From Gammaproteobacteria bacterium (GTDB lineage Bacteria > Pseudomonadota > Gammaproteobacteria > Steroidobacterales > Steroidobacteraceae), in assembly GCA_025359205.1 (NCBI GenBank), contig JANYHD010000012.1, forward strand, positions 1 through 56,685: DNA of 56,685 nucleotides, written 5' to 3'. Below, in pieces: positions 34,089-49,896 of the stretch. The position numbers and the translations under genes were made by a program. Every line of letters starts with the position of its first letter. Position 1 is the stretch's first letter. The notes under the pieces were generated by a model. The model was not told where the DNA came from and made no database searches. It saw nothing but the letters and a program-made list of their open reading frames with translations.

Positions 34089-36068
34089 TTAGCCCTTGCC
34101 CTCGATGGTTTGGGCGAGCGCGGCGAAGCCGCGGTCGCGCGCCACGTCGGCCGCCGTGGCCCGCTTGCTGTTGCGCAGGGCCGTGCTGGCGCCGCCCGCG
34201 AGCAGTGCCTTCACGGCCGGCACATTGCCGGCGCGGCTCGCGACCATGAGGGCCGTGTCCCCGTCCTGGTTCTGCTGGTTGATCGCCGACGAGCGCTGCA
34301 GGAGCGATTGCACCATGGCCTCGCTCCCGCGCAACGCGGCCAGGATCAGCGGCGTGTCGCCGCGGGCATTCCTGGCATCGGCGCGCGCATGCGCCAGCAG
34401 CAGCATCGAGACCAGCGCTTCATGGCCAGCGGCTATTGCGCACATCAGCGGCGTACGCCCGTCCCGGTCGGCGGCGTTCGCGTCCGCATTGGCCGCGAGC
34501 AGCGACTGCGCTGCTTCGGCAGCGCCGGCACGCGCTGCGCGCCACAGCGGGGATTCGCCCTGCCGGTCGGCCAGGCCCACGGCGGCTCCCGTGGCCAGCA
34601 GCAGTTTCACCAGCGGATCGTTGGCGGCGCTGGCCGCCGCCAGCAGTGGTGTCTCGCCGAGCTCGTTGGCCGCATCGACCTTTGCGCCCGCCGCAAGCAG
34701 GCTCTGCGCGACCTCGAGCCGCCCGGCGCGCACCGACGCCAGCAGCGGCGACGATTCCTTGTCGGCATGCGTGTCAGCGTTGATGCCACCGGCCAGCAGC
34801 GCGTTGACCACGGCGGTTTCGCCGCGCGTGGCCGCCAGCACCAGCACCGTGCGGCCGCGCTTGTCGGCCAGGTGCGGATTCGCGTGAGCGGCGAGCAGCG
34901 CCTTGACGCTCGCTTCCGCGCCGGCGTGCATCGCGATATGGAGCAGCGTATCGCCCTGGGGTGAACGGCTGTCGGGATCGGCGCCCGCAGCGAGCAGTTT
35001 CTGCACGCCCTCGGCATCGCCACGCGCGACCGCCAGCGCGATTGGCGGCCAGCCGCGGTAAATGTCGCCCGGCCGTGCTGCGTCGAACTTGCCCGCGCCG
35101 CTCTGGCGGCTGGCGTGCGCGACCTGAGTCTTCGCGCCAAGCGTACGCAGCTGGGCAGCGGCCTGGTCGGCGTCCACGGTGAGCGCGGCATCCAGGGCGC
35201 TGTAATCGCGGCTGTCGGCGGCGGTCAGTGTTGCACCGGCCTTGGCCAGCGCGGCAATGGCCGCGACGCGATTGGCGCGCGCGGCATAGAACAGTGCGGT
35301 GCGCTTCTGGTTGTCGGCTGCGTTGACGGACGCGCCGCGGGCCAGCAGTAGCGCGAGCACCTGCGGATCGGCGAGTTCTGCGGCGCGCATGAGCGGCGTG
35401 ACCCCGAAACTGTCCGCGCGATTCACATCGCTGCCGCCATCGACCAGGAACTGCACGGACGGGAGCGAGCCGGCCGCGGCCGCGTGCGCCAGCACCGTGG
35501 CGCCGAAGGCATCGCGCAGGTCCTTGAGGCCAGGCCCAAGCGATCGCAGGCAGGCGAGGTCGCCATTGCGCGCGCTGTAGATCGCGAGTTCCATCCGCAG
35601 CGTGGTCTCGCTCATGCCCGCCCACTCGGGGCTGAGCGGCATCCGGCCGGCGCGCTCGTCTTCGACCGCTGCCGGATAGCCGAGCGTCGCCGCCTTGTGC
35701 AGCAGCGCCTGCGCTTCGCCCGCTGGTGCGCCAGTGCGGTTGGCCACCAGCGCGGCCAGCACGTAGGCGGCTGTGGCATTGTTCTGCGCCGCGCTCTTGC
35801 CGAGCCAGGATGCCGCCGCCGTCCGGTCGATCGCCGTGCCTACTCCGTTGAGGTAAACGAGACCCAGCAGCAGCTGCGCCTCGGCATTGCCCGCGCCGGC
35901 GCCCTGCTGAAGCCTGGCAACGGCATTGGCAAAGTCGCGGGTGCGCAGTGCGGCCTTCGCGCTCTCGAGCGGGTCGGGCGCCTTGGACGCGGCGCCCGCC
36001 GCGCCAGCGGCCGACAGCATGGTGGTCAGCGCCAGCGCGGCCAGCCTGGTGCGCATTGCGGCGTTCAT
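34089..36068 (-). CDS. Exported Sel1/ankyrin-repeat protein
   Basis: 659 residues. A signal peptide (cleavage near AAGAA) is followed by Sel1-type repeats (about residues 45-140, GNAEAQLLLGLVYLNGVG) and then a long ankyrin array (about 190-655) with many G-x-TPLxxA units such as GETPLLAAASAANDPLV and GRTPLMCAIAAGHEALV. The ankyrin part suggests a protein-binding scaffold, here periplasmic. It starts at 36068, the last base of the Fe-S flavoprotein gene on the same strand, so the two are probably transcribed together. A structural role near the cytochrome cluster is possible but not shown. Confidence 0.85.
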   Translation of the reverse strand: MNAAMRTRLAALALTTMLSAAGAAGAASKAPDPLESAKAALRTRDFANAVARLQQGAGAGNAEAQLLLGLVYLNGVGTAIDRTAAASWLGKSAAQNNATAAYVLAALVANRTGAPAGEAQALLHKAATLGYPAAVEDERAGRMPLSPEWAGMSETTLRMELAIYSARNGDLACLRSLGPGLKDLRDAFGATVLAHAAAAGSLPSVQFLVDGGSDVNRADSFGVTPLMRAAELADPQVLALLLARGASVNAADNQKRTALFYAARANRVAAIAALAKAGATLTAADSRDYSALDAALTVDADQAAAQLRTLGAKTQVAHASRQSGAGKFDAARPGDIYRGWPPIALAVARGDAEGVQKLLAAGADPDSRSPQGDTLLHIAMHAGAEASVKALLAAHANPHLADKRGRTVLVLAATRGETAVVNALLAGGINADTHADKESSPLLASVRAGRLEVAQSLLAAGAKVDAANELGETPLLAAASAANDPLVKLLLATGAAVGLADRQGESPLWRAARAGAAEAAQSLLAANADANAADRDGRTPLMCAIAAGHEALVSMLLLAHARADARNARGDTPLILAALRGSEAMVQSLLQRSSAINQQNQDGDTALMVASRAGNVPAVKALLAGGASTALRNSKRATAADVARDRGFAALAQTIEGKG

Positions 36069-37378
36069 CAGGCCGTACCGAATTTGGTTTCGACGCGTAT
36101 GCCGACTTTGTTGAGGAATTCGTTGGGCAGCACGCCGCCGGCGCTGACGATGACCGCCTTGTTGCGGATTTCGTGCTTCTGGCCGCCCTGCTCGAGGATC
36201 ACGAGGTCGTCGTGGATGTGGCTGACGTTCGAAGACAGCATCAGTTTCAGGTTGCCGCGACCGGCCGCCGCCTCCACGCGCTGGCGGTTCTTCGGCTTGG
36301 CGCGGCCGAAGGCGTCGCCGCGGTAGGAGAGCGTCACCTGCGTGCCGCTGACCTCCGCAATGCTGGCCGCGGCCTCGAGCGCACTGTCACCGCCGCCGAC
36401 CACGAGCACTTCCTGGCCGATGTACTGGTCCGGGTCGATGAGCCGGTAGACGACCTTTGGCAAGTCCTCTCCCGGTACCGCCAGCTTGCGCGGTGTACCG
36501 CGGCGGCCGATGGCCAGCAGTACGGTGGCGGCGTGGTGCGTCGTCTTGGTGGTGCGCACGGTGAATCCGTCGCCCTCTTTAACCACGGCCTCGACGCGCT
36601 CGCTCGTCCGGATGCGCAGCTGCTGCTGCTGCATGATCTCGGTCCACTTGGCGAGCAACGCTTCCTTCGAGGTCTGGCGGAAGTGGAAATGGCCGACCAG
36701 CGGCAGTTCGACCGGCGCGGTCATCACCAGTTTGCCGCGTGGATACTTGTACACGCAGCCGCCGAGCGATTCCTGTTCGATGCAGTCGTAATTGAGGTTG
36801 AGCGACTTGGCCGTGAGCGCCGCGGCCATGCCGGCCGGTCCGGCGCCGACGATGAGCAGGTCCAGCTGCTTGCCCGGTGCGCTGTTGCGACGCTTGGCAA
36901 TGGACTGCACCGCCTGCACGCCCTGCGTCAGCGCGTTGCGGATCAGACCCATGCCGCCGAGCTCACCGGCGATGAACACGCCGGGCACGTTGGTCTCGAA
37001 ATTCGGATTGAGCACCGGCAGGTCGATGCCGCGTGTCTCGGTGCCGAACACCAGCGTGATCGCATCCACCGGGCAGGCCGATTTACAGGCGCCGTGGCCG
37101 ATGCATTCGGTCGGTGCGACCAGGTGCGCCTTGTTGTCGATGAGACCGAGCACGGTGTGCTGCGGATACTCCGGGCAGGCGCGCACGCAGGCGCCGCAGC
37201 CGAGGCAACGCGTGAGATCGATGGTCGGATGGAGCGACGCCGGTTCGAGCAGGCCCGCTTCCTTGGCCTCGTGATGCACCTCGCGGCTCTTATTCTCCAG
37301 CCGGTAGTGCCGACGCAGGTACCACAGCATGGTAAGCAGCAGCGGCGCGAAGTAGACGGCAATGAGGCTGTTATCCAT
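36068..37378 (-). CDS. Membrane-anchored ferredoxin/FAD-NAD(P) oxidoreductase
   Basis: 436 residues. A membrane helix (about residues 4-21) anchors the protein, followed by a two-cluster ferredoxin domain. Cluster 1 is C58-x2-C61-x2-C64-x3-C68. Cluster 2 is CIGHGACKSAC, where His95 stands in place of the second cysteine (C92, H95, C98, C102). After residue 150 comes a thioredoxin-reductase-like flavoprotein with two nucleotide motifs (IVGAGPAGMAAA and VVGGGDSALEAA). It could pass electrons between NAD(P)H or a ferredoxin and membrane carriers. It diverges from the cytochrome cluster across a 206-bp promoter region, so it is a plausible cytoplasmic entry or exit point for that chain. Confidence 0.85.
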   Translation of the reverse strand: MDNSLIAVYFAPLLLTMLWYLRRHYRLENKSREVHHEAKEAGLLEPASLHPTIDLTRCLGCGACVRACPEYPQHTVLGLIDNKAHLVAPTECIGHGACKSACPVDAITLVFGTETRGIDLPVLNPNFETNVPGVFIAGELGGMGLIRNALTQGVQAVQSIAKRRNSAPGKQLDLLIVGAGPAGMAAALTAKSLNLNYDCIEQESLGGCVYKYPRGKLVMTAPVELPLVGHFHFRQTSKEALLAKWTEIMQQQQLRIRTSERVEAVVKEGDGFTVRTTKTTHHAATVLLAIGRRGTPRKLAVPGEDLPKVVYRLIDPDQYIGQEVLVVGGGDSALEAAASIAEVSGTQVTLSYRGDAFGRAKPKNRQRVEAAAGRGNLKLMLSSNVSHIHDDLVILEQGGQKHEIRNKAVIVSAGGVLPNEFLNKVGIRVETKFGTA

Positions 37379-37513
37379 ACGGTTGGTTCAACGGACCCAG
37401 CGCGTTGTGGTACACATCAGGCGCAGACTAATGTACATCCGGCTAGGCTTCCGTGAGTCGGCGCACGTGTCAACATGTCGCCAAATTGTGAACTGTCCCG
37501 CACAAGCGACAGC

Positions 37514-37541
37514 GTGACGATACCGGGCGAGGCTTTACAAT
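37514..37541 (+). promoter_or_regulatory. Sigma-70-like promoter of the multiheme cytochrome cluster
   Basis: GTGACG (37514-37519, four of six) and TACAAT (37536-37541, five of six) are 16 bp apart, giving a transcript start near 37548 and a leader of about 37 nt before the ATG at 37585. The rest of the 206-bp divergent region (37379-37584) shows no clear operator. Confidence 0.45.
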
Positions 37542-37584
37542 CCGTGACAGTCCGCGTATGGCGAGTTAAGAACATCTTAATAGC

Positions 37585-38898
37585 ATGAATTCTGTTAACA
37601 CGTTTTTCTTTGCGGCCGGCGTGCTCGCCACGGTGGCGATGCTGTTCGTGCTGTATCCATGGCTCGCGGGCAAGGCGCGCAGCGAGCTGCTCGCGGCGCT
37701 GCCGCGCTGGGTACCGCTGGCCGGGGCCGCGGCCCTGGCGATCGTGCTGGCGGTCTACGTGGCACTGGGCAGGCCCCAGCTCAATGACCAGGATGCCACG
37801 CCCGGCAATACGCCGGCTGCCGTGGCAGCGGCGATGGCCACGCCCGGGGCCGCAGCCCCACCGCAGGCGGCCGGCTCAATGGATAGCGCGGTGACGGGGC
37901 TGGAGCGGCGCCTCGGCGCGGGCGGCGGGAGTGGCGGTGATTGGGAGCTGCTGGCGAAGTCCTACGAATTCCTAGGCAGGCCCGCTGACGCCGCGCTGGC
38001 GCGCCAGAAGCGCCTGCCGGCAGGCGCCGGCACCGCCGCCGTTCCAGGCGCAACGCCTGCACCTGCCGCGGGCCCTGCCGTTGCCGCGCCGCCGCCTGCG
38101 CCGCTGTCCGCCGAAGCAGCCCGGCTGGTGACGGCCGCCAATGCCGCCCGCAACAAACGCGATTTTGCCGCCGCCCGCGACCTGTACGCCAAGCTTGCCG
38201 CGCGCAATGAAATGAACGCCGACACTTGGGCGGACTATGCGGACGTCACGGCATCGCTCCATGGCCGATCGCTCCTGGGCAAGCCGGCGACGTATCTCGC
38301 CAGCGCACTGCGGCTCGATCCGCAGCATCCGAAGGCGCTGTGGCTGCAGGCGAGCATGGAGCACGAGGCCCACCAGTACCCGGCGGCCGCCGGTAGCTGG
38401 CAGCGGCTGGCCGCTGCGCTGGGTCCCAATTCTCCCGATGCGCAGGTCATTGCCGCCAACCTGGCCGAGGACCAGCGCCTGGCGGGCGCTGGCGCGGTCC
38501 AGCCCGTGGGCGCGGCGACGACAGGGACGGCGCCAGGCGCCGCCGCGAATGCCGTCATGGTGCGTGGCGAGGTCGTCCTCGCCGACTCGCTCAAGGGCAA
38601 GATTCCCGCCGGGTTGACGCTGTTCATCGTGGCCAAGTCGGTCAGTTCGCCCGGGCCCCCCGTGGCGATCTGGCGCACCACCACGGGCAGCTGGCCCGTC
38701 GCCTTCCAGCTCGATGATTCGCAGGCCATGATTCCGATGCGCAGGCTTTCCACGGCGGGAATGGTGACAATCGAGGCGCGCACCTCGCGCACCGGCCAGG
38801 CCATGCCCGCGCCCGGCGATTTTCAGGGGGTCAGCGCGCAGCTCGACCCGGCCGCAGGCAAGCCAGTGCGCATCGTGATCCAGAAGGTCATTAGCTAA
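37585..38898 (+). CDS. CcmI/CycH-like cytochrome c maturation protein
   Basis: 437 residues. Two membrane helices (about 7-28 and 44-62) sit at the N-terminus as in CcmI, followed by an Ala/Pro linker and a TPR region (about 175-290, 'NKRDFAAARDLYAKLAARNE'). The C-terminal domain (about 320-437, 'GEVVLADSLKGKIPAGLTLF') matches the CcmI C-terminal fold. CcmI holds apocytochromes for heme ligation by CcmFH. Its position as the first gene of the cytochrome cluster suggests a dedicated chaperone for the two multiheme cytochromes, including their unusual heme sites. It is 3 bp before the next gene. Confidence 0.85.
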   Translation: MNSVNTFFFAAGVLATVAMLFVLYPWLAGKARSELLAALPRWVPLAGAAALAIVLAVYVALGRPQLNDQDATPGNTPAAVAAAMATPGAAAPPQAAGSMDSAVTGLERRLGAGGGSGGDWELLAKSYEFLGRPADAALARQKRLPAGAGTAAVPGATPAPAAGPAVAAPPPAPLSAEAARLVTAANAARNKRDFAAARDLYAKLAARNEMNADTWADYADVTASLHGRSLLGKPATYLASALRLDPQHPKALWLQASMEHEAHQYPAAAGSWQRLAAALGPNSPDAQVIAANLAEDQRLAGAGAVQPVGAATTGTAPGAAANAVMVRGEVVLADSLKGKIPAGLTLFIVAKSVSSPGPPVAIWRTTTGSWPVAFQLDDSQAMIPMRRLSTAGMVTIEARTSRTGQAMPAPGDFQGVSAQLDPAAGKPVRIVIQKVIS

Positions 38899-38901
38899 GC
38901 C

Positions 38902-39750
38902 ATGGCGCTGCTCGCGCGGCATATCACGCCGGTGCGCGCCTTCGGGTTCGCGGTCGTCGCGGCACTGGCCTTCGGCTTCAAGGGCCACCTCGACCGCTAC
39001 CTCACCCCTGACCGGGGCCTGGGCTATTGGCTCGGCATCATCGGCGGTTCGATGATGCTGGTATTGCTGATGTACCCGGCCCGCAAGCGCGCAGCGTGGC
39101 TGAAGGTCTTTGGCGGTGTAGGCGGCTGGTTCCAGGCGCATATGACGCTGGGCGTAGTAGGGCCGCTGCTGGTGCTGTTTCATTCCAATTTCTCGCTCGG
39201 CGCCACCAACAGCAACGTGGCGCTGTTTTGCATGCTGGCGGTCTCGGGCAGCGGGCTGATCGGGCGCTACATCTATACGCGCGTGTACGCGGGCTGGGAC
39301 AGTCACGCCACCTCGCTTGAGGAGCTGCAGGCCACGGCCGAGCAACTGCGCAAGCAGACCACCACGGTGACGGTGCTGCCCAATTTCCTCACGGCCATCG
39401 AGACCGAGGAACAGCGCCTGTTCCGTCCGGCCAAGTCGGCGTTCGGCTCACTCCTGTACCCGCTCACCATTGGCCTGCGCTCGGTGCTGGCGCGCTGGCG
39501 CCTGGGGCAGCAGATTCGCCGCATGGTGCTCGAGGCCGCGCGCCAATCGCCCACGCTCGCGGCCAACGGGGCGCGGCTCACGGCCACCGCCATGGGCTAT
39601 GCCACGCGGCGCCTCGATGCCGCGCGGCGCGTGCGCGAGCACCGCATGTACGTGCGGCTGTTTTCACTCTGGCATTTTGCGCACGTGCCGGCCTTCATCA
39701 TGACGCTCGTGGCCGGAATCGTGCATGTGATTTCGGTCAACGTGTACTGA
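38902..39750 (+). CDS. Probable membrane di-heme cytochrome b
   Basis: 282 residues with about five membrane helices (near 12-30, 42-58, 76-98, 105-125 and 256-278). Two His pairs have the same spacing: H80 and H94 on one helix (QAHMTLGVVGPLLVLFHSN), and H261 and H275 on the last helix (HVPAFIMTLVAGIVH). A His-x13-His pair on each of two helices is the classical way to hold two b-type hemes across a membrane. A charged region (about 135-240) lies between them. Similar proteins pass electrons between quinol and periplasmic cytochromes. The annotation is inferred from this pattern; the family itself is not recognised. It sits 16 bp before the 21-heme gene. Confidence 0.7.
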   Translation: MALLARHITPVRAFGFAVVAALAFGFKGHLDRYLTPDRGLGYWLGIIGGSMMLVLLMYPARKRAAWLKVFGGVGGWFQAHMTLGVVGPLLVLFHSNFSLGATNSNVALFCMLAVSGSGLIGRYIYTRVYAGWDSHATSLEELQATAEQLRKQTTTVTVLPNFLTAIETEEQRLFRPAKSAFGSLLYPLTIGLRSVLARWRLGQQIRRMVLEAARQSPTLAANGARLTATAMGYATRRLDAARRVREHRMYVRLFSLWHFAHVPAFIMTLVAGIVHVISVNVY

Positions 39751-39766
39751 CGCCGGGTTCGATCCA

Positions 39767-41332
39767 GTGAAGCGGGCAGGAGGATATTGGTTCGTGCGAT
39801 GGGTGGCAGCAGCAAGCCTGATCAGTGGCACGGCCGCCCATGCGACGGCCGTGGAGAGCCTGCTCATGCCCGGCAAGGTCGCCACCGCGCATGCCAAGCT
39901 CGAGGACACCTGCAGCAACTGCCACGACCGCACCGATCGGAGCCGCCAGAGCGCGCTGTGCCTGGCCTGCCACAAGGCCATCGCCGCCGACGTGCGCGAC
40001 CGCCATGGCTTCCATGGGCGCATGCCCAACGCCGGAGCCGGCAAGTGCGTCGGCTGCCATACCGAACACCTCGGCCGCGACGGCGACATCGTGCGCCTGA
40101 ACAAGCTCGAATTCGACCATGAGCGCACGGAATTTCCGCTCGCGGGTGCGCACCGCGCACTGGCCTGCGCGAGCTGCCACAAGCAGGGCGAGGCCTATCG
40201 CAAGGCGCAACCCGGCTGCCTCAGCTGCCACAAGAAGGACGACTACCACGAGGGTCAGCTCGCCGCGACCTGCGCCGATTGCCACAACATGGACAGCTGG
40301 ACCGGCGCGCGCTTTGATCACAACAAGACCGCCTTCGCGCTCACCGGTGCGCACATGTCGGTGAGCTGCGGTGGCTGCCACCTGGGCGGCCGCTACAAGC
40401 CCGCGCCCAAGACCTGCGTCGGCTGCCACGCGACCGACGACGCGCACCGCGGCGAGCGCGGTGACGACTGCGGCAAGTGCCACACCACGACCGGCTGGAA
40501 GGAAGCCAAGTTCGATCACGAGAAGGAGACGGGCTTCGCGCTGCTAGGGCACCACTCGAAGATCGACTGCCTGGGATGCCATCGCAGCGGCAACTTCAAG
40601 GACAAGATCCCCAAGGACTGCTACGGTTGCCACAAGGCCGACGACTCGCACGCCGGGCGTTTCGGCAGCAAGTGCGACAGCTGCCACAACAACGAGGAAT
40701 GGCGGCCGGTGAAATACGACCACCTGGCAAAGACGAAATTCGCACTGCTCGGCATCCATGCGAAACTCGATTGCCACGTGTGCCACACGGCGAGCGTTGA
40801 CACGCAGAAGCTCGGCAGCGACTGCCTGTCCTGCCATCGCGCGGCGAACCCGCACGGCGCGAAGTTCAAGACCGCCTGCGATACCTGCCATGGACAGCAG
40901 GACTGGCACAGCGAAATCAGCTTTGATCACGACCTCACGAGCTTCCCGCTGCTCGGTTTACATAATGTCGTAAGCTGCGCGCAGTGCCATCGCACACAGG
41001 CCTTCAGCGATCTTAAATCGCGCTGCATCGATTGCCACAAGAAAGACGACGTACACAAGGGCGGCCTCGGCGATAAATGCGACAGTTGTCACACGCCCAA
41101 CGGCTGGTCCTTATGGGTTTTCGATCACCTTAAGCAAACAGGCTTCGGGCTCACTGGCGCGCACGCTAAAATCAAATGTGCCGACTGCCATCGCAAGCCT
41201 GCGGCCGAGGTGAAGCTTTCGAAGGACTGCGTGTCGTGTCACCAAAAGGATGACATCCATGCGGGCCAGTTCGGACGGCAGTGCCAGCGCTGCCACGGTA
41301 CCGTTACCTTCCAGGGTGGGCGCGCCAGGTAG
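39767..41332 (+). CDS. Periplasmic 21-heme cytochrome c
   Basis: 521 residues from a GTG start; the signal segment runs to about residue 27 (ISGTAAHA). I count 21 CxxCH heme sites, one heme per about 25 residues. After the first two sites the protein follows a three-heme repeat, six full copies, each containing FDH (a His likely to be a distal heme ligand), an F-x-L-x-G-x-H segment and C-x-x-C-H-x-x-D-D-x-H. No lipobox or membrane anchor is seen, so it should be soluble in the periplasm, where it could wire the inner-membrane cytochrome b to the outer-membrane complex. It is followed after 21 bp by the giant cytochrome. Confidence 0.95.
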   Translation: MKRAGGYWFVRWVAAASLISGTAAHATAVESLLMPGKVATAHAKLEDTCSNCHDRTDRSRQSALCLACHKAIAADVRDRHGFHGRMPNAGAGKCVGCHTEHLGRDGDIVRLNKLEFDHERTEFPLAGAHRALACASCHKQGEAYRKAQPGCLSCHKKDDYHEGQLAATCADCHNMDSWTGARFDHNKTAFALTGAHMSVSCGGCHLGGRYKPAPKTCVGCHATDDAHRGERGDDCGKCHTTTGWKEAKFDHEKETGFALLGHHSKIDCLGCHRSGNFKDKIPKDCYGCHKADDSHAGRFGSKCDSCHNNEEWRPVKYDHLAKTKFALLGIHAKLDCHVCHTASVDTQKLGSDCLSCHRAANPHGAKFKTACDTCHGQQDWHSEISFDHDLTSFPLLGLHNVVSCAQCHRTQAFSDLKSRCIDCHKKDDVHKGGLGDKCDSCHTPNGWSLWVFDHLKQTGFGLTGAHAKIKCADCHRKPAAEVKLSKDCVSCHQKDDIHAGQFGRQCQRCHGTVTFQGGRAR

Positions 41333-41353
41333 AATCTAACAGGTAGGATCTAT

Positions 41354-44300
41354 ATGAATACAGCAAAGCGATTCTCAAGGCGGTTGCGCGCCATGTCACT
41401 GGCGCGCTGGCGGCTGCTCGCGGGCATGGTAGTTGCCGTGCTGTGGTTACCCATCGGTGCGGTGCACTCAGCTGATCGTACACCCTTCGATCATCTGACC
41501 ACGGGCTTCGAGCTGATCGGCCAGCATCGTGATCTGCCCTGCGAGTCCTGCCACGTCAATGCCATCTTCAAGGGCACGCCCAAGGATTGCGCGGCCTGCC
41601 ACGGAGTCGGCACAGCGGTGCGCGCCACCGCCAAGCCTGTCAGCCACATCCTCTCCACAGATCGCTGCGAAGCCTGCCACACGCCGGTGGCCTGGAACCC
41701 GGCCGTGAACTTCGATCATGCGGAAGTGCGCGGGGCCTGTTCGAGCTGTCACAACAATGTGCAGGCGCAGGGCAAGGGCCCCCAGCACATCCAGACGGAC
41801 CTTGAGTGCAACCTTTGCCACTCGACCATCGGTTGGGGTGGTGCGGTCTTCAACCACACCAATGTGACCAGTGGCTGCGCGAGCTGCCACAACGGCCTGG
41901 GCGCCAAGGGGCCGCCTGCCACGCACATACCGACTGGGCTCTCGCCCAACCTGGCTGATCCAGGCAACGCACCCTGCGAGGCCTGCCATACGCCGACCAA
42001 CTATGTGACCTTCTCCGGTACGGCGATGAACCATCTGGCGGTGAGCCCGCCCATGCTGTGCGCTGTGTGCCACGAGAAGGGCATGTCCTTCTTCGGTGTG
42101 ACCATCGTGACGCGCCCGGCCACGGTGCGCGGCATAGTGCACCCGACCACCGGCGACTGCGGCCAGTGCCATCTGTCCACGGTGTCGTTCGCGACGGGCA
42201 ACCTGCAACCGCTGGGTCATATTCCCACCTCGCAACCTTGTGCGCTCTGCCACCTGGTGCCGGGGGATTTCATCACCAAGACCATGGATCACACCGGCAT
42301 CGCCAATGGCTGCGCCACCTGTCACGCCGACGGGTCGAGCTTCACCAACATGGCGCCGCTGGTGCTGGTAATGCCCAACTCGCCGAAATCCGGCCACATT
42401 GCCTTCGGCGGCGCGGCCTGCGAGAGCTGCCACTCGAACACCACGTTTACGATGCCCGGCGGATTCATTATCCCGAACATGAGCGGCGCGGCAGCGCCGG
42501 CGATGGTGCATGCCGCGGTGGCGGCCACGCCCTGCGCCACCTGCCACGGCGCAGCCGCGGCTGACTTCGGTCTGACGCCCAAGAAGACGGTGACCATTGC
42601 TGGCGTGAACCACATTCCGATCGGCAGCGCGACCTGCGACAGCTGCCACTCGAAGACGGATTTTTCGACTTTCGTGATCCCGAATGCGAGCACCACGACG
42701 GCGCCAGGCATGGTGCACACCGCGGTGACGAGCACGGCCTGCTCGGTTTGCCATGAGCGCAACCTGACCTGGGTGGGCACCGCGCCGACAACCGTCGTGA
42801 CACGGCCGTTGCTTGAGGCTTCAGGCGCGACGCATCCGACCAGCGGCGAATGTTCCGATTGCCACAAGTCGACCACCTCGTTCAAGGGTGCCAGCAATTT
42901 CCCGGCCACCCACATTCCGCTGCTCGCGGGACAGTCGGCCAACTGCAGCGTCTGCCACACGAACGCGAACGACTTTTCGGCATTCGTGATGAGTACCCCG
43001 GGCCATGCGCTGGTCGGCAGCGTGTGTGCGAGCTGCCACGCCACGGGCCTGACGTTTGCGAACATGCCGCCCAAGATTCTCACACATCCGAGCCCGACCC
43101 ATATTCGGGTCGGCGCCGCGGCCTGCGACAGCTGTCACTCCCCCACGGCCTTCGACAGTTTCCTGTTCACCAATGCAAGTGGCACCGTGCCGCCGGCGAT
43201 GGTGCACACGGCCGTGGCCGCGACGGTCTGCTCGACCTGTCACGAGAAGGGCAAGACCGACTCGGGTGCGCCGCCCACCGTCACGCGTCCGTTGACCGAG
43301 CCGCACCAGACTGGTACGCCGCCGCACCCGGTCAGTGGCGAATGCTCCGATTGCCACAAGTCGACCTCCACGTTTATCGGCGCGACGAATTTCCCCGCCA
43401 CGCACATCCCGCTCACCGCGGGCCAGTCGGCCCCCTGCGCCACCTGCCACACCGGCGGGGGAGACTTCAGTATCTATACGATGGGCTCGGCCGGCCACGC
43501 GCTGGTGAGCACCGCGTGCGCGACCTGCCATGCCACGGGCAAGAGCTTTGCGAACATGGTGACGCCGACGCTGGTACAGCCGCCGGCGACGCACGTGGCC
43601 TTCGGCAGTGCGGCCTGCGAGAGCTGCCACTCGGGCTCGACCTTCACGCAGCCGGGCGGGTTCAAGATCCCGAATGCCAGTGCGACGGCGCCGCCCGGTA
43701 TGGTGCACACGGCGGTGGCTGGCACCGCCTGCATCACCTGCCACGGAGCGGGCAAGACGGACTACGGCACGGTGCCAAAAGCGACGCTGACGATCTCGTC
43801 CGTGAATCACATCCCGACCGGCGCGATCGCCTGCGAGGGCTGCCATTCCAGCAGTTCGTTCACGAGTTTCAGCTTCACCAACGCGAGCGGCACGGCACCA
43901 TCCGCCATGGTGCACACGCTGGTGACCTCGATCGCCTGCTCGACCTGCCACGAGGCCGGCAAGAGCTGGGTGGGCACGCCCGCGACCAAGGTGCGGCCAG
44001 CACTGAAGGCGGACGGTACGGCGCACGTCGCTTCGGGTGAATGCAATACCTGTCATTTCAACACCACGAGTTTCAAGGGCGCGACCGACCTGCCCTCAAA
44101 TCACATTCCGTTGCCGACCGCGGACGCGAACAACTGCAAGCTGTGCCACCTGGACACGACCACTTACACCACGGCGACCATGAATCACGTCAACATCAGC
44201 AGCAACTGCATGCAGTGCCATGCCTATGGCCTGAGCTTTGCCAACATGGCGGCGCCGACGCTGAAGCAGCCCCCGTCGGGGACGACCGGGCATATCCCCA

Positions 44301-45529
44301 CCAATCCGCCCAATTCCACCACGCAGAATTTCGCCTGCGAGCTGTGTCATACGCCGACGGTGTTCACCAGCTTCTCGGGCACGGTCATGAAGCATGCGGT
44401 GGTACGTGGCATGACCTGCATGAGCTGCCACGAGATCGGTATGCAGTGGAAGACCAACACCGGCGCGCGGCTGTGGGTGCGCGACAGCGCCAACCACTAC
44501 AAGGGCCAGGATTGCGGCGGTTCAGGCTGCCACTCCGCGCGCGACAAGTACGCCGCGCGCCGCGCCACGGCCGCGAGTGCGACGGCCAAGGGTGGTGCGA
44601 GCGCATCCGCTCCGGCGCTGAGCGCCGCCGCGTCGGTCGGCGGTGGGGCAGTGGGCTTCAGCCACCGCCGCGTCGCGGGCACGGCTTGTGTGAGCTGCCA
44701 CGGCCCGACCAGCGGCATCGGCATGAGCGCGAATCACATCGCCACCAGTGATCGCTGCGAGAGCTGCCATATGACGGCCGCGTGGTCACCGGTCACGCAC
44801 GTCGATCACATGCAGGTGCAGGGCAGTTGCCTCAGCTGCCACAACGGCGTTGCCGCCACGGGCAAGGGCCGCAACCACATCGTCAGCAGCGACAGCTGCG
44901 AGACCTGCCATACCACCAACGCCTGGTCGCCGGCACGGTTCGATCACGTCGGCGTGGCGGCACACAGCTGCAAGAGTTGCCACGATTCGATTCATGCGAC
45001 TGGCTTGCCGACCAACCACGTGCCGACCAGCGCGCAGTGCGACACCTGCCATGGCACGCTCGGCTGGAAGCCGGCCAGGCTCGATCACACCACGCTGACC
45101 GCCGCTTGCGCGAGCTGCCACGACAACAATATCGCGCTCGGCGTGACGCCCACGCACATGATCACGACGCGTGACTGCGCCACCTGCCACAGCTATCCGG
45201 ACTGGACGATCCTGCACTTCGTCCACACCTCGGCCACCTATCCGGGCGACCATCGCACGGCACTGGCCTGCGCGGCCTGCCACAGCTCGAACACCGAGCA
45301 GATTCCCTGGGCCTCGCCCGCCAACGCCGGGAGCTGCGCGGGTTGTCACGCCAAGGATTTCCGGCCGGATCTGCACCCCAAGACGCTGGGCGGACTGAAA
45401 TACACGGCGAGCGAGCTGCGCAATTGCACGGGCGCCTGCCACGTGTACAGCGACGCGACCATGGGCACGGTGTCCAAGCCGATGCCAGGGCCGTACCACC
45501 GGGTGACGGATGCCGCGTTCAAGCACTAG
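41354..45529 (+). CDS. Giant multiheme cytochrome c with up to 44 heme sites
   Basis: 1391 residues with a long signal peptide (MNTAKRFSRRLRAMSLARWR, cleavage near HSA at residue 40). I count 42 CxxCH sites plus one CX4CH (44513-44533, CGGSGCH) and one CX3CH (45425-45442, CTGACH). Residues 60-190 and 1110-1310 use a two-heme repeat with W-x-P-x-x-x-D-H; the middle is made of five-heme repeats, partly duplicated as a 12-heme block. A Ser/Ala/Gly linker (about 1077-1100) divides the middle from the C-terminal part. No lipobox is visible. Its size and the barrel gene just downstream suggest an outer-membrane or extracellular conductor. The stop overlaps the next start by 20 bp. Confidence 0.95.
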   Translation: MNTAKRFSRRLRAMSLARWRLLAGMVVAVLWLPIGAVHSADRTPFDHLTTGFELIGQHRDLPCESCHVNAIFKGTPKDCAACHGVGTAVRATAKPVSHILSTDRCEACHTPVAWNPAVNFDHAEVRGACSSCHNNVQAQGKGPQHIQTDLECNLCHSTIGWGGAVFNHTNVTSGCASCHNGLGAKGPPATHIPTGLSPNLADPGNAPCEACHTPTNYVTFSGTAMNHLAVSPPMLCAVCHEKGMSFFGVTIVTRPATVRGIVHPTTGDCGQCHLSTVSFATGNLQPLGHIPTSQPCALCHLVPGDFITKTMDHTGIANGCATCHADGSSFTNMAPLVLVMPNSPKSGHIAFGGAACESCHSNTTFTMPGGFIIPNMSGAAAPAMVHAAVAATPCATCHGAAAADFGLTPKKTVTIAGVNHIPIGSATCDSCHSKTDFSTFVIPNASTTTAPGMVHTAVTSTACSVCHERNLTWVGTAPTTVVTRPLLEASGATHPTSGECSDCHKSTTSFKGASNFPATHIPLLAGQSANCSVCHTNANDFSAFVMSTPGHALVGSVCASCHATGLTFANMPPKILTHPSPTHIRVGAAACDSCHSPTAFDSFLFTNASGTVPPAMVHTAVAATVCSTCHEKGKTDSGAPPTVTRPLTEPHQTGTPPHPVSGECSDCHKSTSTFIGATNFPATHIPLTAGQSAPCATCHTGGGDFSIYTMGSAGHALVSTACATCHATGKSFANMVTPTLVQPPATHVAFGSAACESCHSGSTFTQPGGFKIPNASATAPPGMVHTAVAGTACITCHGAGKTDYGTVPKATLTISSVNHIPTGAIACEGCHSSSSFTSFSFTNASGTAPSAMVHTLVTSIACSTCHEAGKSWVGTPATKVRPALKADGTAHVASGECNTCHFNTTSFKGATDLPSNHIPLPTADANNCKLCHLDTTTYTTATMNHVNISSNCMQCHAYGLSFANMAAPTLKQPPSGTTGHIPTNPPNSTTQNFACELCHTPTVFTSFSGTVMKHAVVRGMTCMSCHEIGMQWKTNTGARLWVRDSANHYKGQDCGGSGCHSARDKYAARRATAASATAKGGASASAPALSAAASVGGGAVGFSHRRVAGTACVSCHGPTSGIGMSANHIATSDRCESCHMTAAWSPVTHVDHMQVQGSCLSCHNGVAATGKGRNHIVSSDSCETCHTTNAWSPARFDHVGVAAHSCKSCHDSIHATGLPTNHVPTSAQCDTCHGTLGWKPARLDHTTLTAACASCHDNNIALGVTPTHMITTRDCATCHSYPDWTILHFVHTSATYPGDHRTALACAACHSSNTEQIPWASPANAGSCAGCHAKDFRPDLHPKTLGGLKYTASELRNCTGACHVYSDATMGTVSKPMPGPYHRVTDAAFKH
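44513..44533 (+). other. Non-canonical CX4CH heme site
   Basis: The codons spell CGGSGCH, with four residues between the cysteines, in the stretch that ends the five-heme repeat region. All hemes around it use CxxCH. CX4CH sites are known in a few multiheme cytochromes (for example tetraheme cytochromes c3), so heme attachment is plausible. Confidence 0.6.
45425..45442 (+). other. Non-canonical CX3CH heme site
   Basis: The codons spell CTGACH near the C-terminus of the giant cytochrome. CX3CH is rare. Since the spacing and the following His look like a heme site (NCTGACHVYSDATMG), it is counted as a possible 44th heme. Confidence 0.5.
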
Positions 45530-47966
45530 GGGCGCCGCCGCCTCTGCCGGGTTCGCGCTGATCGCCTCGCTGGGCTTCGGCCCGGCCGCGCTGGCGCAGA
45601 TCACGGGCGCGGGTCCCGGGCGATTTGTTGACGTCATCGAAGTCGAGGACCACGACGACCAGGCCGACGTGGTCGTGCAGTTCACCTGCTCGCTGCGCTA
45701 CATCACGCACCAACCGGCGGCCGAATCGAAGGAGCTGCGCATCCAGCTCCAGCCGCTGGGTGACTGCCAGCTCGCGCCCGGTACGCAGATCCTCGGTGAA
45801 CTGCCGCCGGTTTCCGGCGGGGCGCACATCATCGACGCCGCACGTGTCGAATCCGATGTGCCCGGGCAGCTCACGCTGGTGTTCGATTTCCACAAGGGCG
45901 AGCGCTATGTGCTGGCGCAGGGCGTGGACCCGCGCGGCCTGCGGCTGCGTCTGATCGATCGCGCTCGCGGCCGCGGCAAGGTCATGGTCAATGAGCCCGC
46001 GGGCCCGGCGAGCACCTACGCGGTCAACCTGGAGTCGCAGCCCAAGGACTACACGCCCGAGACGCTGCAGCTGGCCCGTGACCGGCTCAAGGCCCCGGTG
46101 TTTGTCAGCCAGGCGGTGGTGGACGAGGAGACCTGGTACCGCCTGCGCGCGGGTCCTTACGACAAGCGCGGCGATGCCGAGCGCGTGCTCAACCAGGCGC
46201 TGGCCGACTATCCGCGCGCATGGCTCGCCATAGGGGATGACACTGCAGCAGCGGCGGCCGGTGGTACCAGCGAAGTTCTGCCGGCAGTCGAGCGCATCGG
46301 CGCCGATCCCGCGCTCGACCCCGCGACGCTTGCGAAGCTCGTGGGCGATGCGCGCGCCGCCATGACGGCACGGAATTATCCGGCTGCAATTGCCACGCTC
46401 ACCAAGCTGCAGCGCCAGCCGGAGTTCCCGCAGCGCGCCGCCATGCAGGAATTGCTGGGCCTGGCGCGCGAGCGTTCCGGGCAGCTGGCGCATGCCAAGG
46501 CTGAATACGAGGAATACCTGCGCCGCTATCCGGCCGGCGAGGCGGCCGAGCGCATCACGCGGCGCCTGGTGACGCTGCGCGCGGCCTCGACCAGCGCGCG
46601 CACCGGCACCGGCGGTGGCGGTGCCGCCGCCACGGGCTGGGACGTGAACGGCGGCGTCGCGCAGATGTACCGCTATGACGGCACCACGGTCAACAACACT
46701 GCCAACGCCGGCGGCACCGTCGTACCCAACGGCAGCCAGACGCAGAAACAGAATTCGCTCTACAACGATATCGACGTGCTGGCCAAGCGCCGCGGCCAGC
46801 GCTTCGACATGACCGCGCGCATCAGCGCGGGCTATGCCAAGAATTTCGCCGGCAGCTCTGCGACCAGCGCCAGCGATTCCACCAAGCGCATCAGCGTGGC
46901 CTCCTTTGAATTCGCCGACCGCCAGTGGGGCCTGCTGGCGCGCGTCGGCCGCCAGTCCCAGAACAGCGGCGGCGTGCTGGGCACCTTTGACGGTGCCTTT
47001 GCCTCGTGGCGGATCATGCCTTCGCTGGGCATCAACGTGGCCGCCGGCTATCCGGTGGAACGGACCAACGGCGGCATCGAGCGGCAGCGCAGTTTCTGGG
47101 CGCTCGCCATCCCCTACGCGCCGCCGGGCGCGCACTGGGACGCCAGCGTGTTCTTTGCGCAGCAACGATTCGACGGGCTCACCGACCGGCGCGGCACCGG
47201 CTTCGAGGCGCGGCTGCTGCTGCCGCACACGTCGTTCACGATGCTGTATGACTATGACATCTACTTCAAGTCGCTGAACGCCGCGGCGCTCCTCGGTACC
47301 GTGCAGTTGCCGGATCGCTGGAGCCTGAGTTTCGATGCCGAGCAGCGCAACGCGCCGGTTATATCCCTGCGCAACGCCCTGATAGGACAGGCTGCCACGA
47401 GCATCGCCGATCTGCAGACGGTGTTCTCGGACGATGAGATCCTGCAGTACGCGCGCGATCGCACGGCCGTCTCGTCCAACTACAGCCTGACGGCCACGCG
47501 GCCCCTGGGACAGCGCTACCAGTTCTCGGCGACCGTGGATGCCGCGAAGATCGGCGCAACGCCCGCCTCGGGCGGCGTGCCGGCGCAACCGGGAACGGGC
47601 CTGACGCTGTCGTACCAGGCGCAGATCTACGGCTCGAACCTGTGGCGCAATGGCGATTTCAACGTGTTGAGCGTGGCCTACGCCAATACCGAGACCGGCA
47701 AGATCGTTTCGGTGGCTGCAACCACCCGCAGGCCGGTCGGCGGCGACTGGCGCCTCGGTCCGCGCCTGACCATCGATCATCGGCAGCTGGCGAGCGATGG
47801 CAGCAAAGAGCTGTCGTTCCTGCCTTCGGTGTTGCTCGACTACCAGCGCGGCCGGCGCCTGCTGCAGTTCGAAGCGGGCGGGCAGCTTGGCAAGCGCGAC
47901 TCCACGCTGCAGACGCAGAATACAAAGCGCTATTATGTGAGCCTCGCTTACCGCATCGGATTCTGA
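45510..47966 (+). CDS. Outer-membrane beta-barrel with SPOR and TPR domains
   Basis: 818 residues starting inside the end of the giant cytochrome gene (ATG at 45510). Signal peptide to about residue 30 (GFGPAALAQ). A SPOR-like domain (about 165-245, with AGPYDKRGDAERVLNQALAD) is followed by a helical TPR segment (about 265-365). From about 375 to the end are alternating short beta strands rich in Tyr, Gly and Asn, ending YYVSLAYRIGF, the C-terminal Phe signature of barrel proteins recognised by BamA. The barrel has roughly the size of MtrB/PioB-type electron-conduit porins. It may host the giant cytochrome through the outer membrane. It overlaps the small gene downstream by one base (TGATG). 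Confidence 0.85.
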   Translation: MPRSSTRGAAASAGFALIASLGFGPAALAQITGAGPGRFVDVIEVEDHDDQADVVVQFTCSLRYITHQPAAESKELRIQLQPLGDCQLAPGTQILGELPPVSGGAHIIDAARVESDVPGQLTLVFDFHKGERYVLAQGVDPRGLRLRLIDRARGRGKVMVNEPAGPASTYAVNLESQPKDYTPETLQLARDRLKAPVFVSQAVVDEETWYRLRAGPYDKRGDAERVLNQALADYPRAWLAIGDDTAAAAAGGTSEVLPAVERIGADPALDPATLAKLVGDARAAMTARNYPAAIATLTKLQRQPEFPQRAAMQELLGLARERSGQLAHAKAEYEEYLRRYPAGEAAERITRRLVTLRAASTSARTGTGGGGAAATGWDVNGGVAQMYRYDGTTVNNTANAGGTVVPNGSQTQKQNSLYNDIDVLAKRRGQRFDMTARISAGYAKNFAGSSATSASDSTKRISVASFEFADRQWGLLARVGRQSQNSGGVLGTFDGAFASWRIMPSLGINVAAGYPVERTNGGIERQRSFWALAIPYAPPGAHWDASVFFAQQRFDGLTDRRGTGFEARLLLPHTSFTMLYDYDIYFKSLNAAALLGTVQLPDRWSLSFDAEQRNAPVISLRNALIGQAATSIADLQTVFSDDEILQYARDRTAVSSNYSLTATRPLGQRYQFSATVDAAKIGATPASGGVPAQPGTGLTLSYQAQIYGSNLWRNGDFNVLSVAYANTETGKIVSVAATTRRPVGGDWRLGPRLTIDHRQLASDGSKELSFLPSVLLDYQRGRRLLQFEAGGQLGKRDSTLQTQNTKRYYVSLAYRIGF

Positions 47967-48556
47967 TGATCCCGCGTAAAGGCCCACTGTGCGCGCTGTG
48001 GCTCGCGGCGCTGCTGATCAGCGCCGGAGTGGCCGGCCGTTCGCCCCCGCCGGAGCCCGAGGAATACCTGGACGAGCGGACCGGCGCCACGGTCGACCTC
48101 GTGGATGCGCCGCTGGTGTTCGCGCGCGACCGGAGTGAGCGGGCCGCCAACCTGCGTGACTACGTGACGCTGTCAGCCGCTTCCGTGAATCGTGGCGGCA
48201 AGCTGGAATACGTGCTGGTCGCCTATGTCTGGTCGACGCTCGACCCACGCTACGCGCCGGCCTCAGCGCTCGCCGACTCGATCCTGCTGATTGCCGATGA
48301 CCGGCGCATCCGGCTCGATGCGGCCGGCAAGTCGCCTACGGACCTCGGCATTGCGCGGCCGGTGCACGCGCCGGCGGGTCAGGACATCAAGCCGCTGGTA
48401 TTCCCGACCGACCTGGCGACGCTGCGCTTCATCGCGGCCGCACGGACCCTCGCGGTGCAGACCCAGCTCGGCGAAGACAGCGTGACCTACGATCTGTGGG
48501 ACGACCAGCGGCGCGCGCTCGATCGCTACGTGCGCTTCATGGACGGCGAACGCTGA
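47966..48556 (+). CDS. Small exported protein at the end of the cytochrome cluster
   Basis: 196 residues starting at the ATG in the barrel stop (TGATG); an upstream frame to 47642 is shadow. Signal peptide MIPRKGPLCALWLAALLISA without a lipobox cysteine; cleavage likely near residue 23. The mature protein is mixed alpha/beta with 'LEYVLVAYVWSTLDPRYAPA' and 'DSILLIADDRRIRLDAAGKS', which I do not recognise. No heme motif. Its overlap with the barrel gene suggests a periplasmic accessory of the conduit. It converges on the DUF3443 gene with a 10-bp gap. Confidence 0.75.
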   Translation: MIPRKGPLCALWLAALLISAGVAGRSPPPEPEEYLDERTGATVDLVDAPLVFARDRSERAANLRDYVTLSAASVNRGGKLEYVLVAYVWSTLDPRYAPASALADSILLIADDRRIRLDAAGKSPTDLGIARPVHAPAGQDIKPLVFPTDLATLRFIAAARTLAVQTQLGEDSVTYDLWDDQRRALDRYVRFMDGER

Positions 48557-48566
48557 GGGCAGGCGG

Positions 48567-49838
48567 TTAGAACGCGATGTACGGGCCGGTCGCGCCGGTG
48601 GTCGACTGGCCTTCGATAGCGACGTATACGTTGCGGCCATAGAAGAACGGCAGGCCCCAGTCGAAGGCGGTGGCGTCGCCGAGCGGCCCGCCGAAATTGC
48701 TGAATGCGTTGTAGGTGGGCTGGGCCTGCAGGAGCGTCAGTGCGTCACCGATCGCAAAATTGACCTGCTTGGTGCTGCCATCCGACCCTTGTACGGTGGC
48801 CGACAGGGGCAGCGGCGCCGACGCTCCCGGGCAGTAGAGCCCGCCTGCCGGCGAAGACGCATTGCACGCCGGGTAGAGGTCGTCGAAATACAGGCCTTTC
48901 GAGGCCGAGTCGATGTAGCTGTGCGCCAGCGTCTGGCCGTTGTATACGGTCGTCAGGAAACCCAGGGCATCGACCGGTAGCACGGTCGCTGTGCCGAGCG
49001 AGTTGTTGGCCTGGGTGTTGATGCCCAGTACCAGCGAGCCGCGCGCGCCGAACGAACCATTGGGCCCCACCGCCGGCAATTCGATGACCACACCGTTGTT
49101 GTTGCTGGCAAAGCGATACACCGGGTTCTGCAGCTGCAGGGCAGTACTGAGCGTGTCCCCGGTGCATGTCGCGATGCAGGTGTAGTACTGGTAAATCTGG
49201 CCGGCGCCAGGCGGCTGGGTGCAGCCGTTGCCGCAGTCTTCGCGGAACACGCCTACCCCTAAGATGCCGTTGGCGCTGAGCGCCGCGACTGTGTCCGCCG
49301 CCGGCAGGGGCTTGGCAGTCAGCGCGAGCGAGCATTCGCTCGGCGCGGTAGGCGCGGCGGAATCGCCGACCAGCTGCACCGGCAGGTTCAGCGCCTTGCC
49401 GTCGGCGATCTGCACGTCGGCCAGGCGCACGCTGCCCCAGGTGTAGCTGCGGTCGCCGAATTGCAGGCACTCGAACACCGGCTGGTTGGCGATGTCCATT
49501 TCCTGCGGCAACGCCAGGGACTTGTTGGCTACCGTTGCGAGCAGCCGCAGGCCGGTCGAGCCGGTGTCGAGCAGCACGTGATCGATGACCTGGCAATTGC
49601 TGCTCGAGCCGGGTTGGCAGATCGTGACCGAGACGTAGGGCGAGTTGACGCCATTGATCGCCGCGGCCGGCCCGCCATCGACCGTGATGGCCGCGACGTT
49701 GCTGCCGGGCACGGACTGCGCGCCGCCACTGCCGAGGTCGCCGCCGCAGCTGGCCAGCAGGCCCAGTGCGAACACCGGGGCAGCCAGAGCGAGGGTTCGT
49801 ATAACAGGGGAGCGCATCACCCGGCCATTTTCCACCAT
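48567..49838 (-). CDS. DUF3443-family lipoprotein
   Basis: 423 residues from the ATG at 49838, chosen for its GGAG site; GTG at 49850 and ATG at 49817 are alternatives. A lipoprotein signal ends LLASCGG. The domain contains VLLDTGSTGLRLL, which resembles the aspartyl-protease DTGST active-site loop, several Cys pairs and 'FYGRNVYVAIEGQSTTGATG' at the end; this combination is typical of DUF3443, common in Burkholderia and related genera. Function unknown. It lies between the convergent cytochrome cluster and typA and appears to be transcribed alone. Confidence 0.85.
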   Translation of the reverse strand: MVENGRVMRSPVIRTLALAAPVFALGLLASCGGDLGSGGAQSVPGSNVAAITVDGGPAAAINGVNSPYVSVTICQPGSSSNCQVIDHVLLDTGSTGLRLLATVANKSLALPQEMDIANQPVFECLQFGDRSYTWGSVRLADVQIADGKALNLPVQLVGDSAAPTAPSECSLALTAKPLPAADTVAALSANGILGVGVFREDCGNGCTQPPGAGQIYQYYTCIATCTGDTLSTALQLQNPVYRFASNNNGVVIELPAVGPNGSFGARGSLVLGINTQANNSLGTATVLPVDALGFLTTVYNGQTLAHSYIDSASKGLYFDDLYPACNASSPAGGLYCPGASAPLPLSATVQGSDGSTKQVNFAIGDALTLLQAQPTYNAFSNFGGPLGDATAFDWGLPFFYGRNVYVAIEGQSTTGATGPYIAF

Positions 49839-49896
49839 GCGGCGCTCCACCAGTGCCTGTCGCCACCAACCGACAGCGGCGGGGCATTAAGGTCAA

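Follow-up and report, generated by a model that had tools for sequence, protein, structure and literature searches.

What system is encoded by a locus in which a gene for an iron-sulphur (Fe-S) flavoprotein diverges from six tightly packed genes, two of which specify cytochromes of exceptional heme content? The locus lies at positions 34089-48556 of a 56,685-nucleotide stretch of Steroidobacteraceae DNA (the window; contig JANYHD010000012.1 of assembly GCA_025359205.1). The original prediction had called it a porin-cytochrome locus for extracellular electron transfer that could not be matched to a described system. As a prediction from gene content the first part stands; the second does not, since the composition, order, heme numbers and membrane-protein motifs of the core fit a published definition, and by these features the core is PCC3. 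In the text of He et al. (2017, PMC5566968), PCC3 consists of a porin, an extracellular cytochrome, a periplasmic cytochrome and a membrane protein of about 300 residues with five helices, the motif WX3HX13H on helices 3 and 5 and SGXXG on helix 4, and the median heme numbers are 34 for the extracellular and 21 for the periplasmic cytochromes. In the window, the porin gene stands beside genes for multiheme cytochromes with predicted extracellular and periplasmic locations, with 42-44 hemes in the larger, extracellular one and 21 in the periplasmic one, and the membrane protein has 282 residues, both WX3HX13H motifs, SGLIG and helices for five spans. Transport of electrons across the envelope by PCC3 is predicted. 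The locus is one more PCC3 member, and what is new relative to accounts of PCC3 is its extended list of partners.

The seven reading frames noted originally are all open at their positions. The six plus-strand genes occupy 37585-48556; three of their junctions are gaps (3, 16 and 21 bp) and two are overlaps (20 bp and 1 bp), and 206 bp separate them from the divergent flavoprotein gene (36068-37378, minus strand), so that both the parts and their spacing were confirmed. The list was nevertheless incomplete, for an ankyrin gene (34089-36068, minus strand) had been overlooked outside the coordinates first described. It shares one base with the flavoprotein gene, which it follows on that strand as the second gene of a two-gene unit, and encodes a Sel1/ankyrin-repeat protein of 659 residues (Pfam Ank and Sel1 matches) that is predicted to be secreted. 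The idea of one component for each compartment from cytoplasm to outer surface holds as a set of predicted locations.

Do the flavoprotein and ankyrin genes belong with PCC3? We scanned a collection of 84,980 species, each represented by one genome, for the membrane protein and chose loci by two of its peptide patterns, which gave 71 loci (43 clusters at 70% identity). They are mostly labelled Gamma- or Alphaproteobacteria, with a few Nitrospinaceae, Nitrospirae, Ignavibacteria and Bacteroidetes/Bacteroidales; porin-less relatives are included, so that not all are full PCC3, and a porin homologue is present in 32 of the 37 loci with long flanks. A flavoprotein gene lies within 9 kb of the membrane-protein gene in 60 of the 71 loci, and in all 41 that have at least 5 kb on both sides. 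Among the 11 loci without it, the contig ends no more than 1.1 kb upstream of the membrane-protein gene in seven, and less than 3 kb downstream in the remaining four. The flavoprotein gene is divergent upstream in 41 loci, upstream on the same strand in 8, downstream on the same strand in 6 and downstream on the opposite strand in 5, and this varied position indicates that the link has survived rearrangement.

The two genes also go together in genomes drawn evenly from the class (274 genomes; expectation value, E, of at most 1e-60 for the flavoprotein and 1e-10 for the membrane protein), where the flavoprotein was found in 35, the membrane protein in 49 and both in 33 (Fisher p 4e-28). On the same contig, 31 of the 38 flavoprotein genes are within 11 kb of a membrane-protein gene, 27 of them within 2.5 kb. 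The flavoprotein occurs in all 32 genomes with the best-scoring membrane proteins and in one of the 17 with weaker ones. An evenly drawn sample of the phylum (398 genomes) gave the flavoprotein in six genomes, exactly the six with a strong membrane-protein match (E at most 1.1e-76), and in none of the 31 with weak membrane-protein matches (E 1.4e-27 or worse). The boundary between strong and weak membrane-protein matches was fixed after inspection of the data.

The ankyrin protein is encoded in 48 of the 71 loci (30 of the 37 with long flanks), in 47 of them within 150 bp of the flavoprotein gene. The class sample contains 36 ankyrin matches in 32 genomes, of which 25 are within 1.5 kb of a flavoprotein gene, three more are within 3.5 kb of a membrane-protein gene and eight are near neither; two of the 25 come from the opposite strand of a single record, and the count took in only four membrane-protein places. 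All 12 near-full-length matches (>1.7 kb) are linked, ten to the flavoprotein and two to the membrane protein. Each of 43 ankyrin homologues, including that of the window, has a signal-peptide-like start by a permissive home-made rule applied with no control. The flavoprotein and ankyrin genes thus usually accompany PCC3. A listed PCC3 holder with 63 and 21 hemes, Amphritea atlantica DSM 18887 (PMC5566968), carries flavoprotein, ankyrin and CcmI-like genes in its locus of 63 and 21 hemes as well (L078). Loci in which a porin homologue was not detected, from Thiobacillus/Aromatoleum-type (L084, L087, L089) and Bacteroidota/Ignavibacteria records (L088, L090, L091), contain the membrane protein, the flavoprotein and an 18-21-heme cytochrome.

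The inner-membrane protein (38902-39750, plus strand) is a predicted di-heme b protein with heme ligands H80/H94 and H261/H275. Its motifs are W76-x3-H80-x13-H94, S117-G-L-I-G121 and W257-x3-H261-x13-H275; W76, H80, H94, S117, G118, G121, W257 and H261 are invariant in 47 aligned sequences and H275 is present in at least 90%. A hydropathy scan placed four segments above threshold, and an AlphaFold2 model (predicted local distance difference test, pLDDT, 85) has helices at 10-28, 39-54, 73-94, 102-129 and the end of 223-281, which make five spans. A Pfam search with the protein gave no family; across the 47 relatives, Ferric_reduct (PF01794) was matched in one (E 0.042) and DUF4405 weakly in 22 (best E 0.00075). 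The family profile gave one chance match among PDB sequences (E 0.99). In the fold comparison, unrelated helical proteins came top, with cytochromes b561 and b6f lower among the 50 rows listed; the fold searches returned no MtrB-type barrels or ferric reductases among those rows, which is not evidence of their absence. The source genome has only one PCC3 membrane protein, that of the window. A second, about 27% identical membrane protein that keeps all four histidines is present in another genome that also has PCC3 (G008:C38, L018/L102).

The flavoprotein is a 2[4Fe-4S] FAD/NAD(P) oxidoreductase by Pfam (Pyr_redox_3, E 7.7e-43, and 4Fe-4S), profile matches and linkage. The motif of its first cluster is CxxCxxCxxxC, the second cysteine of which is kept in 53 of 58 aligned rows, and that of its second is CxxHxxCxxxC, with C92, H95, C98 and C102 invariant in all 58; the alignment counts the window's own sequence twice. 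The second cluster is probably coordinated by a histidine. The glycine motifs are invariant too, as are R353 and R359 after the NAD Rossmann motif, which we take to resemble NADPH-binding arginines. Among solved structures, its nearest relatives are YpdA/Bdr and ferredoxin-NADP or thioredoxin reductases (7a7b, E 2.6e-31), and the NCBIfam YpdA model matches with E 1.2e-48, below the model cut-off. Residues 101-165 gave 20 weak matches (E 0.07-0.88), all of them in the later nucleotide-binding region of chains of the thioredoxin-reductase, ferredoxin-NADP-reductase or lipoamide-dehydrogenase type. Because this stretch, which resembles the C-terminal FAD-binding stretch of such enzymes, precedes the FAD Rossmann motif, the protein appears to be a circularly permuted enzyme of the thioredoxin reductase/YpdA type. 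The label of membrane protein given to it at first is weak for the window's own sequence, where the hydropathy scan placed no segment over threshold; across the family, the first 19 residues average 1.6, just at threshold, and a basic stretch comes next. This hydrophobic start followed by basic residues suggests an N-terminal membrane anchor with the enzyme part in the cytoplasm.

Next to the membrane-protein gene lies that of the periplasmic multiheme cytochrome (pMHC; 39767-41332, plus strand, GTG start), which contains 21 CXXCH motifs. The gene for the giant, predicted extracellular multiheme cytochrome (eMHC) comes next (41354-45529, plus strand) and encodes 44 candidate heme sites, made up of 42 canonical CXXCH motifs, one CX3CH and one CX4CH; the heme counts given originally, 21 and 44 sites, were therefore right. 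In 500 shuffles per cytochrome, CXXCH occurred on average 0.3 (pMHC) and 0.36 (eMHC) times, with maxima of 3 and 4, and Pfam places both proteins with Cytochrome_C7/Cytochrom_c3_2. Of 61 relatives, 55 have 21 CXXCH motifs in the first complete cytochrome that follows the membrane protein, five have 18 and one has 27, and the cytochrome before the porin has from 9 to 63 across 41 loci, a pattern consistent with an inner periplasmic wire of fixed length and an outer cytochrome of free length. A head motif is common to short (9-13 hemes) and long eMHCs (matched by regular expression in 33 of 41, where some of the eight misses are near matches and the L092 row is probably its periplasmic cytochrome). 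We also considered whether one end of the eMHC is an MtrA-like plug of the barrel; this was set aside, as the repeats made the alignment uninformative on which end enters. Elsewhere in the source genome, an orphan eMHC paralogue of 2521 residues is encoded on the minus strand of contig C24 (G000:C24, L021:6300-13865), with 78 CXXCH, one CX3CH and one CX4CH, and no porin was recognised among the surrounding open reading frames of at least 150 residues. He et al. give 85 as the largest number (PMC5566968).

The porin (45510-47966, plus strand) matches SPOR (PF05036, E 1.4e-5) and, weakly, TPR (TPR_16, 0.0003, under cut-off). Its AlphaFold2 model (mean pLDDT 79) consists of a β-rich N-domain, the SPOR region, a TPR stretch with five helices and a barrel, for which we counted 22 strands among those listed from residue 377 onward. 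A barrel with SPOR and TPR domains had been thought unusual. The domains are real; they recur, however, in other PCC3 porins (of 32, 18 have SPOR and at least 21 have TPR), and judged from these matches the combination is a trait of the family.

Is the CcmI-like protein (37585-38898, plus strand) specific to the cluster, as first proposed? It has two N-terminal membrane segments, a weak TPR middle and a C-terminal Ig_CycH domain (PF23892, E 1.9e-26; 95.7 bits against a cut-off of 27), and TPR_CcmH_CycH scores 22.3 bits against a cut-off of 42. Another contig of the genome (C25, L093) carries the series ccmABC-E-F-G-H-I, with gene names read from translations, including its own Ig_CycH protein. 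Within the genus, the membrane-protein gene is directly preceded by an Ig_CycH gene in all nine genomes that have it, and eight of these carry a second Ig_CycH gene (partial and below cut-off in G007); of six genomes without the membrane protein, five have one Ig_CycH gene and G011 has two. The second gene in G011 (L112, L120), where no PCC3 membrane protein was detected, is divergent. In a tree of 48 proteins, the 33 PCC3 copies split from 15 housekeeping copies, all from one genus, with support of 100/99. Given the complete ccm operon with its own CcmI and the separate clade, the protein is, on present comparisons, a dedicated second copy, and the proposal stands. It would be a helper of one PCC3 branch: the gene is directly upstream of the membrane-protein gene in 38 of 68 loci with room, by a stricter count than an earlier one that was loose in cut-off and place, and no record labelled Alphaproteobacteria has it there. 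Very similar loci occur in L047 (labelled Planktophila, Actinomycetota), L067 (Janthinobacterium) and L049 (a proteobacterium); from the CcmI tree, the label of L047, and probably that of L067, look like binning or naming errors.

The last gene of the run (47966-48556, plus strand) encodes a small exported protein of 196 residues for which Pfam and NCBIfam searches gave no family; it directly follows the porin gene in 15 of 35 loci with room. Beyond it lies a DUF3443 gene (48567-49850), which several relatives (L023, L029-L032, L035) also have next to their cluster or ankyrin gene. The divergent intergenic region (37379-37584) has a non-coding core, at about 37445-37545, that is strongly conserved in an alignment of five related genomes and contains repeated TGTC/GACA elements. 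A promoter-like TACAAT lies at 37536-37541, although such sites are not enriched (2 found, 1.2 expected from shuffles). A conserved 15-mer of the region has one exact site in the genome and four with two mismatches, compared with seven for a reversed-pattern control; no second exact site, and no regulon, was seen in this search.

How might the parts work together? We consider it probable that the locus encodes a PCC3-type conduit for electron transfer between the exterior and the cytoplasmic face of the inner membrane, with a split NADPH-oxidase-like inner end. In NADPH oxidases and ferric reductases, an NAD(P)H/FAD module lies on the cytoplasmic side, and the linked flavoprotein would be such a module in a separate chain, acting together with the di-heme protein as a split analogue of these enzymes. 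The four histidines of the membrane protein would, as in those enzymes, hold one heme near each face. Electrons would pass from NAD(P)H to FAD, through the two Fe-S clusters of the flavoprotein to the two b hemes, and from there along the 21-heme wire of fixed length to the extracellular cytochrome in the porin and an outside partner. SPOR domains bind bare peptidoglycan, so the porin, and with it the conduit, would be fixed in the cell wall. The CcmI-like protein may deliver both heme-rich apocytochromes to the housekeeping Ccm machine, and the probable role of the secreted ankyrin protein is in scaffolding or assembly.

In which direction would electrons flow? By established bioenergetics rather than by calculation here, electrons passing directly from Fe(II) to NAD(P) on the cytoplasmic side would have to climb steeply against both the redox and the membrane potential. 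The pairing with an NAD(P)-type flavoprotein therefore speaks for export, or else for uptake restricted to donors of low potential. The large chain of RuBisCO was not found in the draft genome, which is 97% complete; other routes of CO2 fixation were outside this search. According to the text of PMC8788666, both PCC3 clusters of ES-1 are lowered on Fe(II) relative to thiosulfate. On the strength of the last two observations we slightly favour export, against which stands the raised PCC3_2 inner-membrane gene of iron-oxidising Sideroxydans CL21 (PMC12442390). More tentatively, PCC3 in general could serve mainly as a trans-envelope NAD(P)H oxidase rather than as an iron oxidase, SPOR-anchored and ankyrin-scaffolded, in which a split pair resembling NADPH oxidase feeds the 21-heme wire and a variable surface cytochrome.

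The reverse, in which PCC3 works inward, oxidising Fe(II), minerals or another outside donor, while the di-heme protein feeds the quinone pool and the flavoprotein is a separate accessory, is the published model (PMC5566968). The CL21 data speak for it, as do genomes of Gallionellaceae iron oxidisers, of which 26 have a complete predicted PCC3 and 11 a partial one (PMC10734462). We nevertheless regard it as rather unlikely for this locus, because it leaves the tight link to an NAD(P)-type flavoprotein unexplained and sits poorly with the ES-1 expression data, the RuBisCO result and the uphill step from Fe(II) to NAD(P). More doubtful still is that the flavoprotein and ankyrin protein stand outside the electron path as helpers that make or protect the cytochromes, by thiol reduction, heme handling or oxidative-stress defence. 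Here the two genes do form a separate divergent unit, the flavoprotein resembles thioredoxin reductase and YpdA, and about 65 heme sites per complex would place a heavy load on maturation. The 58 aligned rows, however, contain no conserved CXXC besides the cluster motifs, so the active-site disulfide of thioredoxin reductases was not found; thiol reduction would not be expected to call for two Fe-S clusters; and in Bacteroidota and Thiobacillus/Aromatoleum-type loci the flavoprotein gene is in line with the membrane-protein and cytochrome genes. A wholly new extracellular-electron-transfer system, to which the flavoprotein, ankyrin, CcmI-like and small proteins might point as parts outside the main-text definition of PCC3, was rejected as most improbable, since PCC3 core features all fit where they could be tested and the Amphritea locus, a listed PCC3, has the first three of these genes.

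The locus matters beyond this genome, as PCC3 is widespread and includes some of the largest cytochromes known. The partner genes suggest how electrons may enter or leave the chain; the linked NAD(P)-type flavoprotein and secreted ankyrin protein are specific targets that could settle direction and substrate, and their genes are two extra annotation markers for PCC3. The dedicated CcmI makes system-specific cytochrome maturation testable. The extended parts list was not found in the parts of the PCC3 literature searched. CcmI, TPR, SPOR domain, flavoprotein and ankyrin were not found in the text of PMC5566968, with figures and supplementary tables outside the search; among the matches listed, ankyrin was not found in the portions of the PCC3 literature covered, and PCC3 with flavoprotein-type terms gave nothing relevant. 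A literature search for a SPOR domain with a multiheme cytochrome found no papers. Partial prior notice of the extra partners is possible, because He et al. note 'another redox protein' next to related clusters, most of which lack a porin (PMC5566968).

Several known systems share parts with the locus. Like the CcmI-like protein, NrfG is a system-specific helper for one multiheme cytochrome; the protein described here differs in carrying the Ig_CycH domain and would serve cytochromes of 21 and 44 sites. With YpdA/Bdr and thioredoxin reductases the flavoprotein shares the FAD/NADPH core, and it departs from them in the Fe-S domain in front, the apparently moved FAD motif and the lack of an active-site disulfide. 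MtrCAB and MtoAB similarly combine a porin with periplasmic and, in MtrC, surface cytochromes; the DmsE/MtrA model, however, matches part of the eMHC under its cut-off (103 against 192 bits), and the porin gave no Pfam or NCBIfam match to the MtrB/PioB family at E 0.1. NADPH oxidases and ferric reductases have the same two HX13H pairs with NAD(P)H/FAD input, the former resemblance being noted by He et al. (PMC5566968), whereas the locus would split the function over two proteins and adds Fe-S clusters. PCC4, as described in the same text (PMC5566968), also has a di-heme membrane protein, and one subgroup has an Fe-S gene upstream, a precedent for the pairing; unlike the locus, it has three smaller periplasmic cytochromes (4, 5 and 10 hemes) and no extracellular one. 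The closest likeness is to PCC3 itself, with the same porin, large extracellular and 21-heme periplasmic cytochromes and WX3HX13H/SGXXG membrane protein in adjacent genes, and to PCC3 as described in that text the locus adds an Fe-S flavoprotein, an ankyrin protein, a dedicated CcmI-like protein and a small exported protein.

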